From: an uncultured Erysipelotrichaceae bacterium
GTDB taxonomy: Bacteria; Bacillota_I; Bacilli_A; Erysipelotrichales; Erysipelotrichaceae
Direction of reading: 5' to 3'
Assembly (NCBI GenBank): GCA_902793635.1
Contig: CADBEA010000011.1
Coordinates: 1 to 59,553, forward strand
Length of the DNA stretch: 59,553 nt
In this document: positions 126 to 12,183 of the stretch, one piece after another
How the letters are laid out: each line of letters opens with the position of its first letter
How positions within the stretch are numbered: the first letter of the stretch is position 1
Position numbers and translations under genes: made by a program
The notes under the pieces: generated by a model
The model's input: the letters and a program-made list of their open reading frames with translations, nothing else
What the model was told of the DNA's origin: nothing
Databases searched by the model: none

Positions 126-1223
126 CTATTGAATTAAACCAAAGTGACGCAGACCGTTGGCAATACCGTCGTCATCAATGTCAGTCGTGACATAGTCAGC
201 AGCTTTTTTCAATGCGTCGATGCCGTTGCCCATTGAGATGCCGGTCCCGACAAAACGGATCATGTCTATGTCGTTCTGTCCGTCACCGAAAGCCATCGTT
301 TCATTCAGACGGAAGCCGTAATGATCCATGAATTTCTGGATACCGGCCGCTTTGCCGCCATGCTTGGAAATGATATCGATTCCGGTGTCGTTCCAACTGG
401 TAATGATACAGTCATCCAGCAGATCATCCAGCATCAGGCGCTCCTTGTTCTGTACGAAGGCAAGACACTGATAGATCTTCTCGCCCCTGTATTCACCGAT
501 ATCGGGAATCGTGCCGTTGGTGCTTGTCTGCGTGTCGATGACCAGATCGTCCACATGGTTGATATAGCGCTTGTCTTCACCGACCAGGACAAACGGAATC
601 TTGTCCGCGCTGAAGATCCTGACCAGGATCTCGACTTCGTCCTGATCGATTTCAATACCGGCAAACATCTTTTCATGTTCATCCAGACATACGTTGCCGT
701 TCAGAGTCAGATAGCCGTCAAACGGAATCTGATAAACCGGCAGTTTTCTGAGTTCCCGGATATCACGGCCGGTGCACACGACAGTCAGTACACCGTTCTT
801 TCGTACTTCACTGATCGCATCAATGGCACTCTGGGGAATGCTTTGTGTTTTATGGGAAAACAGAGTTCCGTCAATATCGAAGAAGATGACCTTTGTCTTG
901 CTTTCGAGAACAACATCAGGATCGATACTGACGACATCGTCGAAGCCTGTCAGTTCAAATACGTCACGGACGGTCTCGTTAATATTCACCGCTTCGATGG
1001 CAATGTCTTTGGGAGTATTGCGCCGCAGTCCCAGGAAGACCCGCAGACCGGCGGAAGAAACATAATCCAGGTCAGCAAAATCAAAGACGATTTTCCGATA
1101 GCCGCCCGCTTCGACCGGCTTTTTGATCTGTTCCGCAAACTGCTGAAAGGAATTCGAATCGATTCGTCCGTCAATATATATTTTCAGTATTTCATTATCA
1201 AGTTCACTTCTGACCTTCAGCAT
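126..1223 (-). CDS. STAS domain fused to Cof-type HAD phosphatase
   Basis: Two-domain cytoplasmic protein of 365 residues. Residues 1-105 form a STAS (anti-sigma-factor-antagonist) domain with the DYVSSAGLR signature that carries the phosphorylatable serine in SpoIIAA-like proteins. Residues 110-365 form a Cof-type HAD hydrolase: motif I DIDGT (Asp116, Asp118) and motif IV GDGQND near the C-terminus. The HAD half probably dephosphorylates a sugar phosphate or flavin-type small molecule; the substrate cannot be read from sequence. The start is the ATG at 1223, preceded by GGAGGT at 7-nt spacing; the longer frame adds 23 residues without ribosome site. It diverges from the tetR-FNT operon. The fusion is unusual; families are certain, combined role unknown. 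Confidence 0.85.
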   Translation of the reverse strand: MLKVRSELDNEILKIYIDGRIDSNSFQQFAEQIKKPVEAGGYRKIVFDFADLDYVSSAGLRVFLGLRRNTPKDIAIEAVNINETVRDVFELTGFDDVVSIDPDVVLESKTKVIFFDIDGTLFSHKTQSIPQSAIDAISEVRKNGVLTVVCTGRDIRELRKLPVYQIPFDGYLTLNGNVCLDEHEKMFAGIEIDQDEVEILVRIFSADKIPFVLVGEDKRYINHVDDLVIDTQTSTNGTIPDIGEYRGEKIYQCLAFVQNKERLMLDDLLDDCIITSWNDTGIDIISKHGGKAAGIQKFMDHYGFRLNETMAFGDGQNDIDMIRFVGTGISMGNGIDALKKAADYVTTDIDDDGIANGLRHFGLIQ

Positions 1224-1301
1224 AGCAGTACCTCCGTAGTTTTTTGGTATTACCATCATATCCTTTTTCCAGATTGTAAACCAGTGATTCACGGAAGGGA
1301 A

Positions 1302-5382: not shown

Positions 5383-6468
5383 TTAACGGTCCATACGGGA
5401 CAGAAGCGGCAGAATATGATCCAGAACCTGCTGATAGGCACAGACCTCGTCATTGAGGTAACAGACGTTCTGCCGGCGGCAGCCGCCCCCGCACATCTTC
5501 TGATAACGGCAGTTTTCACATGGTTTTTTCATACACATGTCTGTCCGGATGAAATTTCTGGCTGCTTTGCTCTTTGCCAGCTCGGCAAAGGATGCGTCAT
5601 GCAGATTGCCCATACGGTATTCATCGAGACACCAGAAGTCACAGGGATAGGTATCACCGTTGGATTCGACGACAAACTGAACAGTACACCTGCCGATCAT
5701 GCCGCACTGATAGGGCATCCTCCCCTGCAGCATCTCATACAGATTGTCAAACAGGTTGACGCTCATCGGAAATCCCTTCTCTGTCTGCTTCAGCCACTCG
5801 TCAAAGAAACTGTTGAAGAACGAGGCATATTCCTTTGGGGTCAGGGCATACGGATCATCTTCCGCTTTCAGAGCCGGCAAGCACGGAATCAATTGTACAT
5901 ACTGGAAATGGTGTTCGCGGTAAAACTTCATCAGTGCCTGCGGACGGGCCGCAAGTTTTTTCGTCACGACCGTCAGGATATTGTATTCCACTTTTTTCTT
6001 TGCAAGGATATCCACTGTTTTCAGGATGCGGTAAAAGACACTCTTTCCCGCTGCATCAAACCGGAAATAATCCATATTCGCCTGATAGCCGTCCAGCGAA
6101 ATACCGATCAGGAAATTGTTTTCCCGGAAGAAATCAGCCCATTCCTCATCGATCAGTGTTCCGTTTGTCTGCAGGGCATACACTGTCTTAACGCCTTCAT
6201 ATTGCTTCATCGCGGCGATAAACCTGCGGAAATAACCGAGACCGGCAAGGGTCGGTTCGCCGCCCTGAAAGCTGATAGTGGCAATTCCCTTTCCATCCAG
6301 TGCCTCATTGATTCGCGCGCAGACGACGGAAAGCGTTTCGTCCTTCATGATGCCGTTGGTGGCCGTCATGCGGTTTTCGCTGATATCGGCATAGAAACAG
6401 TAACGGCAGCGCAGATTGCAGGAAGCCGAAGCCGGCTTGATCATAATCGAAATCTGTTTGTCTGCCAT
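5383..6468 (-). CDS. Radical SAM/SPASM protein, anaerobic sulfatase-maturase-like
   Basis: Protein of 361 residues. The N-terminal radical SAM cluster motif is CNLRCRYC (Cys17, 21, 24). The C-terminal SPASM region is cysteine-rich (CGMIGRC, YPCDFWC, CENCRYQKMCGGGC, DEVC) and fits two auxiliary 4Fe-4S clusters. Spacing and wording match the anSME group, which oxidises a Cys/Ser to formylglycine in sulfatases. No sulfatase is in the window, so the substrate may be elsewhere or different. Start chosen at 6468 because AGAAGG precedes it; it begins 1 nt after the stop of the deaminase-like gene, so the two form an operon. Confidence 0.85.
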   Translation of the reverse strand: MADKQISIMIKPASASCNLRCRYCFYADISENRMTATNGIMKDETLSVVCARINEALDGKGIATISFQGGEPTLAGLGYFRRFIAAMKQYEGVKTVYALQTNGTLIDEEWADFFRENNFLIGISLDGYQANMDYFRFDAAGKSVFYRILKTVDILAKKKVEYNILTVVTKKLAARPQALMKFYREHHFQYVQLIPCLPALKAEDDPYALTPKEYASFFNSFFDEWLKQTEKGFPMSVNLFDNLYEMLQGRMPYQCGMIGRCTVQFVVESNGDTYPCDFWCLDEYRMGNLHDASFAELAKSKAARNFIRTDMCMKKPCENCRYQKMCGGGCRRQNVCYLNDEVCAYQQVLDHILPLLSRMDR

Positions 6469-6469
6469 A

Positions 6470-8926
6470 TTATTTACCTTCTGAAAGTTCGTCAGAAGCG
6501 TTGATGATACGCTCAACGATGCCGTCTGCTTCCGGCATGAACAAAGTGACATAGCCCTGCAGGGATACTGCCTTGGCTTTCAGCACCCGGCTGCGCCTAT
6601 TAACAAAGATCAGACATTTCTGGCGGCCGTTGCGGGCTTCCTGGATCATATTGGCACCGGCACTGTTGCCGTCAAAGGCAAGCAGAACCGCTTTGCGCCG
6701 CTTGAAGATCTCATAGGCAAAGCTTTTATACAGTCCCATCGGTGAAACTTCAATCGCTGTACGGATCCAGAACGGCGCCTTGCGCAGATTATCCGCTTCC
6801 TTCCGGCTGATCATACGGGGCACAATAGCAAAGATCTGAAAACGTCCCTGATTCTGATCCAGCAGATATTTCTCATAACCGCTGAGCTGGTGGCCGATGA
6901 CAAAGAAGACTTTGTCCGGATCAGCCTTTTCCAGCAGGTCGTCGATCATCTGCAGACCTTCCGTATGAACGGATGTCACATGCCGGTCATTGTTGAAACT
7001 GCCGCCGCATACGACGATCGGCAGACCGTCTTCCGGCAGAGAGCGGATGCGGTCCGCCAAGGCCACGTCACTGATCACCCTGTCGTCTGTATTCTTCACT
7101 GACAACTCTTCAATTTCCGAAGAATCGATACGTTTCTGATAGTATTCCCGCCAGGACGTCAGCTCCGGCATCGCCTGCTGTTTCTCAGCAAATGCCTCTT
7201 CACTGATCAGGCGGACCTTTTCCTCGCTGTTTTTCATATGCTGCATCTCAGCCACGCTCAGATGCAGGAAACGCTCGAGAGCCAGCTGTTCATCCATCGA
7301 GTCCGTTCCGTAAAGAGCGCCGCCGTCGGTTCCCTGCACGCAGTTCAGACCGTATGACAGATAGGTCCTGAGCGGATGGTTCTTCATACTGCTGAGATTG
7401 TTCAGACGCACGTTGGAAGTAATCTGGAATTCCAGCACGGCATCGGTTTCCCGCAATGCTTTGATCAGTGCCTGGCCCTTGGCTGTCTGCAGATTGGCTG
7501 TATATAAACCGTGGCCGATGCGGATCTGCGGCATCTTCTGCCCTTCCCGCAGAGCATCCGTGACACAGCGGATACTGTTTGCGACATTGTCGCGCAGACT
7601 GTCATTTTCACCAGCATGGATGCGGACGACATAGCCCGGTACATCTTCGGCAATCCGGACGATTTCTCTGATCACCGGTGCAAGATCGCGGATGTCATTG
7701 ATTTCTTCACCGAGAATGTCACTGCCGGCAACATACGGATCATTGGCGATGGCCTTGAGGACCCGCAGGTTTTCCCGGAAATAATCGAGGGCAACCTGAT
7801 CCTTGACGATCGTCAGCGGAATCCGGCGGATCGCCGCCAGGAAACGCAGACGCACACCGGTTTCGGCATAAATTGCCGGCATGACCTGATGCACTTCATC
7901 CAGCATTTCCGCCGCGCCGTGTGTCTTGACCAGCGTCGTATCGGATATCTCCGCATAGACGATGCCGCGGGACTGATAACTGCGAGCGATCCACAGAAGC
8001 TTGTTCTGGAACAGGCTGTTGTTTGCATAGCGGGGATCTTCCTGATCCTTCAGCATCTGCCCAAGGATCCTGACAATGTCCTCATCCGGCAGCTGCTCAA
8101 TGTTTTTCAGTCTGATCGGACGGGTGGAAGGAACACCCTTGGTGAACACATAGCGGTACAGATATACCTTCTCCAGATTGGTAAAGACGGCCTGGCCGTC
8201 TTTCAGCACGGACAGGGAGGTGCGGATACGTGAAATATTGTAGGCGGCGTCCTTCAGATTATTCAGGATCAGATCCGCGAAGTTGATAAAGGTATTGTCA
8301 TCGATGCGCCGTTCCAGATATTTGCCTTCCAGACCGCAGCCGGCCTGCTGGACTGCTGCTTTTTCACGTCGTTCCGCCAGTTTCTCAAGCTGCTTTTTCG
8401 TGCATTTCAGCTGCAGTTTGCGGACATAGTAGAGCGGATAGCGGATCTGGTGCCGGAGGCCGAGGGCAATCAGTATATCGGCATTCAGATTGGCATTCAT
8501 ATGTGTATGCAGGTCCGTGGTGAATTTGCATTCCCGGCGGATATATGTCTTCACGATCGATTCATAGACACCCAGACGGTAATTCTTGGTCTGGCTCATC
8601 AGTGTTTTGGCAATGGAAGGAACCTGGGCCTTCATTTCGACCGTTCCGTCCGGATATATATTGGCCACCTTGGTATTGCCAAGGCGGAAAACGTAGACTG
8701 TCCGGTTATAGCCGTCGATATAGCAGGGAAGCGTGCCGCGGCTTACAAGCAGACCGTTCTCATCTTCCGAAAGAGGCAGTTCGCAGAGCCGGGCCAGATT
8801 GCGGATCAGATTGCCGGTATTATGATTCGGTGTCTTCAGGACATAATGAAGATCCTCTCCGTCACGGAAGAGGTCAACGATAATATCTTTTTCCTTGTCC
8901 AGATAAAAACTCTTCATGTACTCCAT
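6470..8926 (-). CDS. Large adenosine-deaminase-like protein with C-terminal Rossmann-like domain
   Basis: Protein of 818 residues, more than twice a normal adenosine deaminase. Metal and catalytic residues of the ADA fold are present in order: HTHMN (His140, His142), HAGE (His437, catalytic Glu440), IGHG (His472) and GTDGG (Asp534). Residues 1-130 and the 150-400 insertion are extra. Residues about 630-818 form a separate alpha/beta domain with VVCGGS near its start and DGNSAGANMIQEA towards its end, resembling SLOG/YspA-type nucleotide-binding folds (inference). Likely a purine or nucleotide deaminase; substrate unknown. Start at 8926 preceded by GAGGGAG. Cotranscribed with the radical SAM gene. 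Confidence 0.8.
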   Translation of the reverse strand: MEYMKSFYLDKEKDIIVDLFRDGEDLHYVLKTPNHNTGNLIRNLARLCELPLSEDENGLLVSRGTLPCYIDGYNRTVYVFRLGNTKVANIYPDGTVEMKAQVPSIAKTLMSQTKNYRLGVYESIVKTYIRRECKFTTDLHTHMNANLNADILIALGLRHQIRYPLYYVRKLQLKCTKKQLEKLAERREKAAVQQAGCGLEGKYLERRIDDNTFINFADLILNNLKDAAYNISRIRTSLSVLKDGQAVFTNLEKVYLYRYVFTKGVPSTRPIRLKNIEQLPDEDIVRILGQMLKDQEDPRYANNSLFQNKLLWIARSYQSRGIVYAEISDTTLVKTHGAAEMLDEVHQVMPAIYAETGVRLRFLAAIRRIPLTIVKDQVALDYFRENLRVLKAIANDPYVAGSDILGEEINDIRDLAPVIREIVRIAEDVPGYVVRIHAGENDSLRDNVANSIRCVTDALREGQKMPQIRIGHGLYTANLQTAKGQALIKALRETDAVLEFQITSNVRLNNLSSMKNHPLRTYLSYGLNCVQGTDGGALYGTDSMDEQLALERFLHLSVAEMQHMKNSEEKVRLISEEAFAEKQQAMPELTSWREYYQKRIDSSEIEELSVKNTDDRVISDVALADRIRSLPEDGLPIVVCGGSFNNDRHVTSVHTEGLQMIDDLLEKADPDKVFFVIGHQLSGYEKYLLDQNQGRFQIFAIVPRMISRKEADNLRKAPFWIRTAIEVSPMGLYKSFAYEIFKRRKAVLLAFDGNSAGANMIQEARNGRQKCLIFVNRRSRVLKAKAVSLQGYVTLFMPEADGIVERIINASDELSEGK

Positions 8927-8999
8927 CTGCTGTTTCTCCCTCAGATTACCGTTATTGTACCTGCCCGGCATGGAAACTGCCAGTCCTGTCATAAGAAAA

Positions 9000-9016
9000 G
9001 ACCGGCTGAACCGGTC
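9000..9016 (-). terminator. Terminator after the FemABX gene
   Basis: GACCGG-CTGAA-CCGGTC; followed on the minus strand by TTTTCTTAT. Separates the FemABX gene from the deaminase-like gene. Confidence 0.75.
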
Positions 9017-9022
9017 ATAATC

Positions 9023-10270
9023 TTATTTCTTTACAGTTTTGTACAGCTTGTATGCCAATTTGTTCACCGGCAGGATGAATTCACCAAGCAGCTGTTCGAC
9101 CTGACCGCCGAAACCGCGCTTGAATTCATAGACACCGTAATCCGATGCGTCTTTGGAGAAATCACCGGAGATACCGTAGAAATTGTAGCGGGGAATCTGA
9201 TGCTCGATCGCATAGCGGATAATCGCCAGCTGAATCGCATACGGTGCGTAGTATTTGCGGAATTCATCGTTGACGGCACTGTAGAGATAGATGATCTCAT
9301 TCTCATAGATGATGAAGAACGAGGCGGCCATCTCGAGAAGCGTGCCGTGTTCCTGTTCCATTTCGTCCGCTTCTTTGTATTTGGCGGCGTTCAGGTCCAG
9401 TGCTTCCTGGGTGACTTTCTTTTTCTTCTGGAATTTCTTGGAGCCGGGCATTTCCGTCAGTTTGGCGTCGACTTCCGCCATTTCCTGATCCAGCTGTTCT
9501 TTTTCGGCATCCAGACGTTTGCGGAATTCATTCAGGTCCAGATAAGCAAGCAGTACTTTGGCGTGTTCACCATACGCTTCCGCCTGCCGGCGGTAGAATT
9601 CTGGTTCGCGCATCGCGAAACCGCGCTTCCGGGAGGTTTCCTCTTCCATGCGGATAAAGATATCGATTTCCGAAGGATCCAGTTCCCTGACCTGAATGCC
9701 CTGTTTCTGTGTCCGGTTGGCCGACCAGCGGGTCTGCTGGTCCATATCCTTCAGCACCTGGGCTTCGTTCCGGCCTGTCAGATCCATGGCAAAGACCCAG
9801 CTGATGGCTGTAAAAGCGGAATAATCCGTCGGGAAACCCTGATGTTCATAGCCAAGACTCTGCAGGAAAGCCATGATGTCGCTGTTGTCATAACCGCCTT
9901 CCACAAGATTTCCGTCAATATCTCTTTCCCGGTAGTTCATATTGGGATTGATCAGCATATACATGACCTTTTTGCCGGCCAGGTATTTCTTCAGCTCTTC
10001 GGTAAAGAACCGGATCGTGTCCTGATCACGGTAATCGGCAAGGAAGCCGCTCTGGGCATGACAGAACTTGTAGATCTTCATGACCGGAATATATGTCAAT
10101 GGTGTCGCGGCGATCAGCCGGCCGTCTTCTCTGATGCCGGCATACTCCGTTTCCCATCCGTTCATCTGTTTCAGATGGATCGCTTCCGTTGAATTCAGAA
10201 AACTGCGCAGTTCACTCTGTTTCTGAAACTGACTGTATTCTTCTTCCGAAAGCAGACAGAATTCTTTCAT
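9023..10270 (-). CDS. FemABX-family aminoacyltransferase (peptidoglycan interpeptide bridge)
   Basis: Members of this family transfer amino acids from aminoacyl-tRNA to the lysine side chain of lipid II to build the cross-bridge. The 415-residue protein has the two GNAT-like halves and, at about residues 245-305, a charged coiled-coil insertion (LDAEKEQLDQEMAEVDAK) like the tRNA-synthetase-like arm of FemA/MurM. The C-terminal half includes YNFYGISGDF and YEFKRGFGG, typical of the family. GGAGGTG precedes the ATG. Monocistronic. Which amino acid is added is unknown. Confidence 0.88.
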   Translation of the reverse strand: MKEFCLLSEEEYSQFQKQSELRSFLNSTEAIHLKQMNGWETEYAGIREDGRLIAATPLTYIPVMKIYKFCHAQSGFLADYRDQDTIRFFTEELKKYLAGKKVMYMLINPNMNYRERDIDGNLVEGGYDNSDIMAFLQSLGYEHQGFPTDYSAFTAISWVFAMDLTGRNEAQVLKDMDQQTRWSANRTQKQGIQVRELDPSEIDIFIRMEEETSRKRGFAMREPEFYRRQAEAYGEHAKVLLAYLDLNEFRKRLDAEKEQLDQEMAEVDAKLTEMPGSKKFQKKKKVTQEALDLNAAKYKEADEMEQEHGTLLEMAASFFIIYENEIIYLYSAVNDEFRKYYAPYAIQLAIIRYAIEHQIPRYNFYGISGDFSKDASDYGVYEFKRGFGGQVEQLLGEFILPVNKLAYKLYKTVKK

Positions 10271-10311: not shown

Positions 10312-10345
10312 CTGAAAAAGGCAAAAAAGCAGCTTCCTTTTTCAG
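10312..10345 (-). terminator. Terminator-like hairpin after the Na/Pi gene
   Basis: CTGAAAAAGG / CCTTTTTCAG, a 10-bp stem overlapping the stop codon. A/T-rich, no long T run, so moderate support. Confidence 0.45.
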
Positions 10346-12183
10346 GCAGCCGCTTCCGCTTCTTTCGTTTCCGATTTTGGCATACTGACAATTCTCACCA
10401 TGTCAAAATACTTGTCATATTCCAGTTCGTACTCCGCCGCATATTCCTGATCGGGACGATGATGCAGGTTATGAATATAGCGGTGTTCCATACCGCGGAT
10501 ATAGTTGTCTTCCCGGGCCAGCATATACACGCCCAGATCCGAACACTGGTCGGAAATACGTTCCAGGTTCTGCAGTATCTCCTGATAATCCAGCGCGGCG
10601 TTGGTATTGCATTCCTGTCGCTTGACGCGGGCGATATGCCGTTCTTTCAGTTCGTCGATCAGTTCGTCAATGACTTCTTCCAGCGGTTCGATCAGACGGG
10701 CCAGTTCAGTCTTGTCTTCACTGTAGGCAGTGACCGTACGGCCGAGGATCTGATTGACAGCCATGAAGGCGATCGGCAGCTCCGCTTTCGCATAATCCGA
10801 CAGTTCCAGATTCGTTTCCTGCATATGCCGGATACTGCCAAGGATATTAATGGCAAGGTCCCCGATTCTCTCGAAACAGATGATCGCTTTCATCTGGAAA
10901 TTCTGATTCTGTTCATCCTGTTCCGTGGTAATATACGGTGACACTTCCACAAGATACTGATTGCCCGCATCCGCCATCCGGTCGAGGGCGTTTTCCCGGT
11001 TGTTGATCTTCTGGACCTTTTTGTCATCCGGATTTTTCATGAGATCTATGGTATCCGTATAGTTCTTAAGGGCGCTTTTTCCCATATGAGCAATCAGATG
11101 ATGCGACTCATTCAGAGCCAGACCGGGATTGGTCAGCAGCAGCGGATCCAGCTCACGTACCAGTTTCTCGTTTTCTTCCTCTTCCGGATCCACGGCCGCG
11201 TCTTTGACAAGCATCTCGGAAATCCTGGCAAACACACCTGTAAAGGGCAGCAGGACAACCGCCGGAATCAGACGGAAGAGACCATGTACATTGGCGACAC
11301 CGCCGGAATCCAGAACCGCGAACCAGATATCGTCATTCAGGATCCTGGTGCTGCGCAGGATAAACAGGGCCGCGACGATCAGGACCAGAGCAAACACATT
11401 GTAGATAATATGGATCAGCACGGTGCGGATCTGTTCTTTTTTGGCGCCGATGCGGCAGACAAAATACGTCGTCAGGCAGTCACCGATATTGACGCCGAGA
11501 ATGACCGCGAAAACGGCACAGAAACGGACGCCGACCGAACTGGCGATCGACTGCAGAATGCCGACGACCGCGGAAGAACTCTGGATAATGCCGGTCGTGA
11601 TCACACCGGCCAGAAAACCCAGGAAGTAATTGTTTTCAAACGATACCAGAAAGCCGCTGAGAACTTCGCTCATCGAACTGACGGACGCGCTCATGTTCAT
11701 CAGACCGACGAACAGAATACCGAAGCCCATGCAGATGGTGCCGGCGTTTTTAGCCTTGCGGGTGCCGACAAACATGATCATGATGATACCAATGATCAGA
11801 GCCATCGGTGCCAGGTTATCCGATTTGAAAAAATACAGCAGACTGGTCGAACCGGCATTGAGGTCCATCAGCCGGATGATCTGGGCCGTGATGCTGGTAC
11901 CGACATTGGCGCCGAGAACGATACCGATCGACTGCCGGAAGGTCAGAAATCCGGCGCCTACCAGACCGACTGTCAGAACGATCGTCGCGGTTGAACTCTG
12001 GATCATGCAGGTCACCAGAAGGCCAAGAATAAAGCCCATATAGGATTTATTCGTCACCTTGGCCAGGGCCGCTTTCAGGGCGCCGCCGGAGCTGCTCTTC
12101 AGACCGTCGCCCATGATCCGCATGCCGTACAGGAACAGCGCCAGACCGCCGAGCAAAGACACTATTTTATAAAACATATCCAT
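10342..12183 (-). CDS. Na/Pi cotransporter-family protein with PhoU-like C-terminal domain
   Basis: 613-residue membrane protein. The N-terminal ~310 residues contain the inverted repeat of NptA/PF02690-type transporters with paired QSS motifs (QSSTATIVL and QSSSAVVG). The C-terminal ~230 residues are hydrophilic, helical and PhoU-like (NRENALDRM, CFERIGDLA). Proteins of this layout are predicted sodium-dependent phosphate carriers whose PhoU domain may sense or gate flux; in some bacteria they act on other anions. Monocistronic; a GAGAGGAG ribosome site precedes the ATG. Confidence 0.88.
   Translation of the reverse strand: MDMFYKIVSLLGGLALFLYGMRIMGDGLKSSSGGALKAALAKVTNKSYMGFILGLLVTCMIQSSTATIVLTVGLVGAGFLTFRQSIGIVLGANVGTSITAQIIRLMDLNAGSTSLLYFFKSDNLAPMALIIGIIMIMFVGTRKAKNAGTICMGFGILFVGLMNMSASVSSMSEVLSGFLVSFENNYFLGFLAGVITTGIIQSSSAVVGILQSIASSVGVRFCAVFAVILGVNIGDCLTTYFVCRIGAKKEQIRTVLIHIIYNVFALVLIVAALFILRSTRILNDDIWFAVLDSGGVANVHGLFRLIPAVVLLPFTGVFARISEMLVKDAAVDPEEEENEKLVRELDPLLLTNPGLALNESHHLIAHMGKSALKNYTDTIDLMKNPDDKKVQKINNRENALDRMADAGNQYLVEVSPYITTEQDEQNQNFQMKAIICFERIGDLAINILGSIRHMQETNLELSDYAKAELPIAFMAVNQILGRTVTAYSEDKTELARLIEPLEEVIDELIDELKERHIARVKRQECNTNAALDYQEILQNLERISDQCSDLGVYMLAREDNYIRGMEHRYIHNLHHRPDQEYAAEYELEYDKYFDMVRIVSMPKSETKEAEAAA

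Follow-up and report, generated by a model that had tools for sequence, protein, structure and literature searches.

We propose that an 818-amino-acid protein encoded in the window, the whole 59,553-nucleotide stretch of DNA analysed here, is a stand-alone, SLOG-gated purine-nucleotide deaminase. The protein joins an adenosine deaminase (ADA)-fold barrel to a C-terminal domain predicted to have a SLOG fold. We infer the activity, the nucleotide substrate, the SLOG ligand, and the gating, and put this reading at slightly below even.

Gene, start site, and neighborhood

An earlier, sequence-only reading had marked an 818-residue protein at this position. The open reading frame is confirmed on the minus strand, with 283 relatives found in a scan of the contigs of one genome collection, and it is real, well past chance. 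Translation of 6470-8926 on the plus strand gives many stops. The gene and its neighbors are as follows.

6470..8926, minus strand: deaminase-SLOG gene, 818 codons, ATG at 8926 with GGGAG upstream
9023-10270, minus strand: FemAB-family (femX-like) protein, flanking the deaminase gene on the same strand
10342-12183, minus strand: Na/Pi cotransporter with PhoU domains, on the same strand as the deaminase gene
5383-6552, minus strand: radical-SAM/SPASM protein downstream of the deaminase gene (listed ORF; a later start is probable)

An alternative in-frame ATG at 8992 would give an 840-aa product. We prefer the start at 8926 and consider 8992 unlikely, because it directly follows the terminator-like hairpin that ends the femX-like gene. 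This hairpin, GACCGGTTCAGCCGGTC followed by TTTTCTT (9000-9016, minus strand), separates the femX-like and deaminase genes, suggesting that each is transcribed on its own. Among the homologues, open frames extend far upstream of the conserved start at loci L032 (3887-6886), L041 (5530-8460), and L048 (4357-8439), the longest such frame reaching up to 1361 aa.

The radical-SAM/SPASM protein is related to anaerobic sulfatase maturases, scoring 334.9 bits, just below the NCBIfam cut-off of 349.45, and its gene is found downstream of the deaminase gene in the closest relatives only. No neighbor genes are conserved around the homologues across about 80 loci. Elsewhere in the window, the ORF at 126-1292 (minus strand), judged by eye, looks like a HAD-like hydrolase preceded at the N terminus by a STAS/anti-sigma-antagonist domain.

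Domain architecture

The full-length AlphaFold2 model, based on 71 sequences, has a pLDDT of 88 and a pTM of 0.84. The protein divides into the following parts.

8552..8926, minus strand: N-terminal beta-rich domain, residues 1-125 (AlphaFold2 secondary structure)
7181..8551, minus strand: ADA-fold TIM barrel, residues 126-582 (PF00962 profile and VIA)
7967..8434, minus strand: barrel insertion, about residues 165-320, mostly helical (AlphaFold2 helices and alignment)
7028..7180, minus strand: variable linker, residues 583-633 (1 of 51 columns nearly invariant)
6539..7027, minus strand: C-terminal SLOG-fold domain, residues 634-796 (its own AlphaFold2 model, Foldseek, and VIA)

The barrel matches PF00962 with 56.7 bits (cut-off 27). 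Residues 125-581 of the model superpose on Plasmodium vivax ADA in VIA with a Z score of 27.9 (rmsd 3.2, 317 residues aligned), and the top Foldseek match is human ADAL. The N-terminal extension of about 130 residues described from the sequence is borne out by the AlphaFold2 model and by conservation: residues 1-125 have 38 nearly invariant columns and are predicted to form a beta-meander with few helices and without alternating beta and alpha elements. The large insertion noted between the first two motifs is likewise present, following HTHMN; in the alignment it amounts to about 150 extra residues past the HxH strand that are missing from ordinary ADAs.

Active site

The residues that define the active site fall in four motifs.

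8501..8509, minus strand: HxH zinc ligands H140/H142, then M143 and N144 (alignment, conservation)
7607..7618, minus strand: HAGE, with zinc ligand H437 and catalytic E440 (invariant in 71 of 71)
7508..7519, minus strand: IGHG, with catalytic H472 (invariant in 71 of 71)
7319..7333, minus strand: GTDGG, with zinc ligand D534, and G535 at the position of mouse D296 (alignment, conservation)

The claim that all ADA metal and catalytic motifs are kept stands for the zinc ligands (H140, H142, H437, and D534) and the catalytic E440 and H472, which are invariant in all 71 homologues, but not for the residues expected to contact the substrate. The base-contacting Asp of mouse ADA, D296, is replaced by Gly (G535) in 71 of 71 homologues, whereas the aligned ordinary bacterial ADAs have D or N. 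At the position of the ribose-contacting Asp, D19, we found Asn (N144) in 65 homologues and Ser in the remaining 6, as opposed to mostly D or E in ordinary ADAs. Since N is found at the D296 position in many ordinary bacterial ADAs, a change there is not by itself proof of a new substrate. The altered pocket makes plain adenosine a less likely substrate but does not single out another.

The NCBIfam equivalog scores are far too low (best, 44.1 bits against a cut-off of 459; TIGR01430, 43.3 against 216.55). We rejected a canonical adenosine deaminase on the basis of these scores and the changed substrate aspartates.

Family, distribution, and copy number

The best 80 of the 283 relatives are full length, with about 56-93% identity. 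Their source genomes belong to Lachnospiraceae, Oscillospiraceae, and Erysipelotrichaceae, and most are MAGs from the ruminant gut. The closest homologue (93% identity) belongs to a Solobacterium MAG from goat ileum, which points to a gut Erysipelotrichaceae host. Full-length copies are rare in a broad sample of the window's phylum (7/392 genomes), and another phylum-level group has them in 2 of 398 genomes. Of 266 genomes in the window's own family, about 71 are carriers, with one copy per carrier genome. The distribution in gut Bacillota is patchy.

The architecture is fixed while the neighbors vary: the SLOG and ADA parts are found together throughout, with no convincing case of the SLOG part without the deaminase part. 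We found no SLOG paralogue in the protein's own genome and no convincing one among the 266 family genomes. No relatives of intermediate similarity were seen, the other matches being just ordinary ADAs of about 320-430 aa. Shorter frames of the family do occur (for example, 248 and 684 aa), several of them at contig ends. Matches to the SLOG part in shorter frames at G910:C32 (437 aa), G892:C112 (517 aa), and G997:C98 (349 aa) may represent frameshifts, contig ends, or split genes.

Bacterial orders are intermingled in a quick tree, which places the window's three-member clade among Lachnospirales. This mixing hints at transfer of the gene but does not prove it, and the MAG labels are coarse. 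We found no related gene in phages or viral contigs and no full-length copy in plasmids, the one plasmid match in total being an ordinary ADA, and we rejected a phage, plasmid, or viral-contig origin on these grounds. In a viral fold library, one match fell below an E value of 0.001 and covered the barrel only.

These counts bear on whether the protein could be a metabolic adenosine or AMP deaminase whose extra domains aid assembly only, with the SLOG domain structural or vestigial. The window's genome has no second PF00962 protein, 35 of the 71 family carriers have this form alone, and housekeeping neighbors such as femX and the Na/Pi transporter would suit such a role. However, an ordinary ADA is also present in the other 36 carriers (counted over two search lists), so the protein is not merely a substitute for one. 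A SLOG domain with 28 of 163 columns nearly invariant and a D296 position that is invariantly Gly also argue against a purely metabolic enzyme, which we regard as rather unlikely.

An anti-phage effector would answer a phage-induced nucleotide signal by flooding the cell with inosine nucleotides, in the manner of RADAR or Cad1. The patchy distribution, the mixing of orders in the tree, the altered substrate pocket, and a design logic like that of Cad1 are all consistent with this, and the sequence-only reading had raised a role in conflict or defense. Against it, PADLOC defense models matched 0 families up to E 10, and phage and plasmid copies were not found. The deaminase gene is adjoined by femX and the radical-SAM protein, with no RdrA or signal synthase, no other conserved partner, and no defense neighborhood. 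A defense role is not supported on this evidence, and we consider an anti-phage effector improbable.

The C-terminal tail

The SLOG fold often acts as a sensor of nucleotide signals. Residues 612-818, folded separately with AlphaFold2 (pLDDT 92.7, pTM 0.91), matched SLOG proteins almost without exception in Foldseek and VIA. The matches include TRPM2 MHR1/2 (Z 13.3, rmsd 3.5, 187 aligned; the structure contains a derivative of ADP-ribose), the molybdenum-cofactor (Moco) carrier protein (Z 13.0), DprA (Z 12.1), and LOG-type proteins and PpnN (Z about 11). TRPM MHR1/2 is a recognized SLOG domain (PMC13143021). The modeled fold, and the fold only, thus supports a SLOG-type Rossmannoid domain: hhalign of the tail against 20 DprAs and one LOG gave no similarity, with shallow alignments, and Pfam gave no SLOG family match on the tail. 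A Toprim domain, suggested by sub-threshold Pfam matches over about 40 residues, was rejected in view of the fold matches. The fold supports the SLOG-like label that had been given from the letters alone to this alpha/beta tail and its GGS and DGNSAGAN signatures: the top matches are nearly all SLOG rather than an unrelated fold. Both motifs are conserved.

6995..7006, minus strand: GGSF loop after SLOG strand 1 (conserved)
6650..6673, minus strand: DGNSAGAN loop at the position of LOG PGGxGTxxE, without the catalytic Glu (conserved)

In the tail, DGNSAGANMIQEA stands where LOG has PGGxGTxxE with its catalytic Glu, a motif that is intact in the same genome's own LOG protein. This substitution weighs against bifunctional purine salvage, with deamination in the barrel and cleavage of the N-glycosidic bond at a LOG/PpnN-like site in the SLOG domain. 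The fold matches of the tail do include LOG and PpnN, the latter a nucleosidase that, going by the titles of its solved structures, binds ppGpp or pppGpp. But with PGGxGTxxE replaced, the catalytic place lacks a Glu; we rejected a LOG-type second enzyme on this basis, and bifunctional salvage seems to us a poor prospect. The missing motif makes a sensor role the better fit for the tail. Its invariant residues do not cluster significantly at strand-end loops (crude test, p 0.19), so the candidate ligand pocket is placed by fold and motif position only.

A DprA-like tail that binds nucleic acid and so recruits the deaminase to DNA or RNA is very improbable: DprA is among the nearest folds (Z about 12), but the tail has no profile similarity to it, ADA-type pockets are known to take mononucleosides and nucleotides, and RdrB, with the same site, gave no RNA deamination in vitro (PMC9994260).

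Proposed function

In the SLOG-gated deaminase that we favor, the zinc-bound site of the TIM barrel would take the 6-amino group off a purine, with a 5'-phosphorylated adenine nucleotide a likelier substrate than free adenosine. A nucleotide-derived small molecule would bind to the C-terminal SLOG domain, which would then switch or tune the barrel in the way that CARF acts in Cad1 and SLOG in ThsA. The probable role of the N-terminal domain and the insertion is to form an oligomer or to give the substrate pocket its shape.

The gating is proposed because a sensor-plus-ADA design is proven in Cad1 and because SLOG domains serve as sensors in ThsA and TRPM2. The ThsA pocket binds cADPR isomers (PMC11204291), and the TRPM2 pocket binds ADP-ribose (PMC13143021), each acting as a sensor. 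It is thus reasonable to infer that a ligand of the tail controls the deaminase. A more specific version is possible but more doubtful: the SLOG domain would sense an ADP-ribose- or alarmone-like molecule and switch the ADA barrel, making the protein a member of an undescribed class of signal-gated purine-nucleotide deaminases that acts without an operon and modifies a portion of the adenine nucleotides.

To our knowledge, sensor-gated ADA enzymes are known from only a few defense systems, Cad1 with CARF and RdrB with an ATPase partner. If our proposal is true, a chromosomal, stand-alone SLOG-gated deaminase is common in gut and rumen Bacillota, and nucleotide signals came to control a purine deaminase away from obvious defense loci as well. 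Both halves, deaminase and SLOG, are open to direct assay. Going by titles and abstracts, the papers found to name both SLOG and adenosine deaminase describe no such fusion; an earlier mention, for example in the founding SLOG survey (Burroughs 2015), is possible. These findings suggest a signal-controlled purine deaminase that is apparently unstudied so far.

Comparison with known systems

The protein shares the TIM barrel and the zinc and catalytic residues with canonical ADA (Add, PF00962) and with ADAL/MAPDA. It departs from canonical ADA in the replacement of D296 by G and D19 by N or S, and in its N-terminal domain, insertion, and SLOG tail. The tail has the fold of the SLOG superfamily (TRPM MHR1/2, Moco carrier, DprA, LOG, PpnN, and ThsA) but no detectable sequence similarity to it; the LOG catalytic motif is missing, and here the domain is fused to a deaminase.

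RdrB of RADAR is of similar size. It has an ADA core with an N-terminal extension and a splitting insertion (PMC9994260), an arrangement common to both proteins, but the accessible part of its description mentions no SLOG tail. RdrB was absent from the 50 best fold matches, and the two could still be close. RADAR membership was rejected, since there is no RdrA AAA+ ATPase partner and no PADLOC match.

Cad1 (CAAD), a type III CRISPR enzyme in which CARF is fused to an adenosine deaminase, offers the nearest parallel. In both proteins an ADA barrel is fused to a signal-binding domain, a putative one in our protein; the barrels superpose with a Z score of about 23-24, and both substrate aspartates, D19 and D296, are replaced. 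Cad1, in which D296 is changed to N and D19 to G, deaminates ATP and hardly acts on adenosine (PMC12669630). Reversal of the first change (N549D) abolishes ATP deamination, and adenosine deamination is not regained with both positions reverted (PMC12669630), so the two positions are not the main specificity determinants in Cad1. By analogy with this ATP deaminase, the changes at D19 and D296 lend support to the idea, put forward in the sequence-only reading, of an unusual purine-nucleotide substrate.

The sensor of Cad1 is an N-terminal CARF domain, whereas here it would be the C-terminal SLOG domain. The insertion of about 150 residues has no noted counterpart in Cad1, and the CRISPR context is missing. 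Pfam gave no CARF match in the 818-aa protein, and we rejected Cad1 membership because the N terminus (residues 1-125) is predicted to be a beta-meander instead of a CARF Rossmann domain. The protein lies outside Cad1, RADAR, canonical ADA, and LOG; on our best reading it would work most like Cad1, and we file it as a variant among sensor-linked ADA enzymes.
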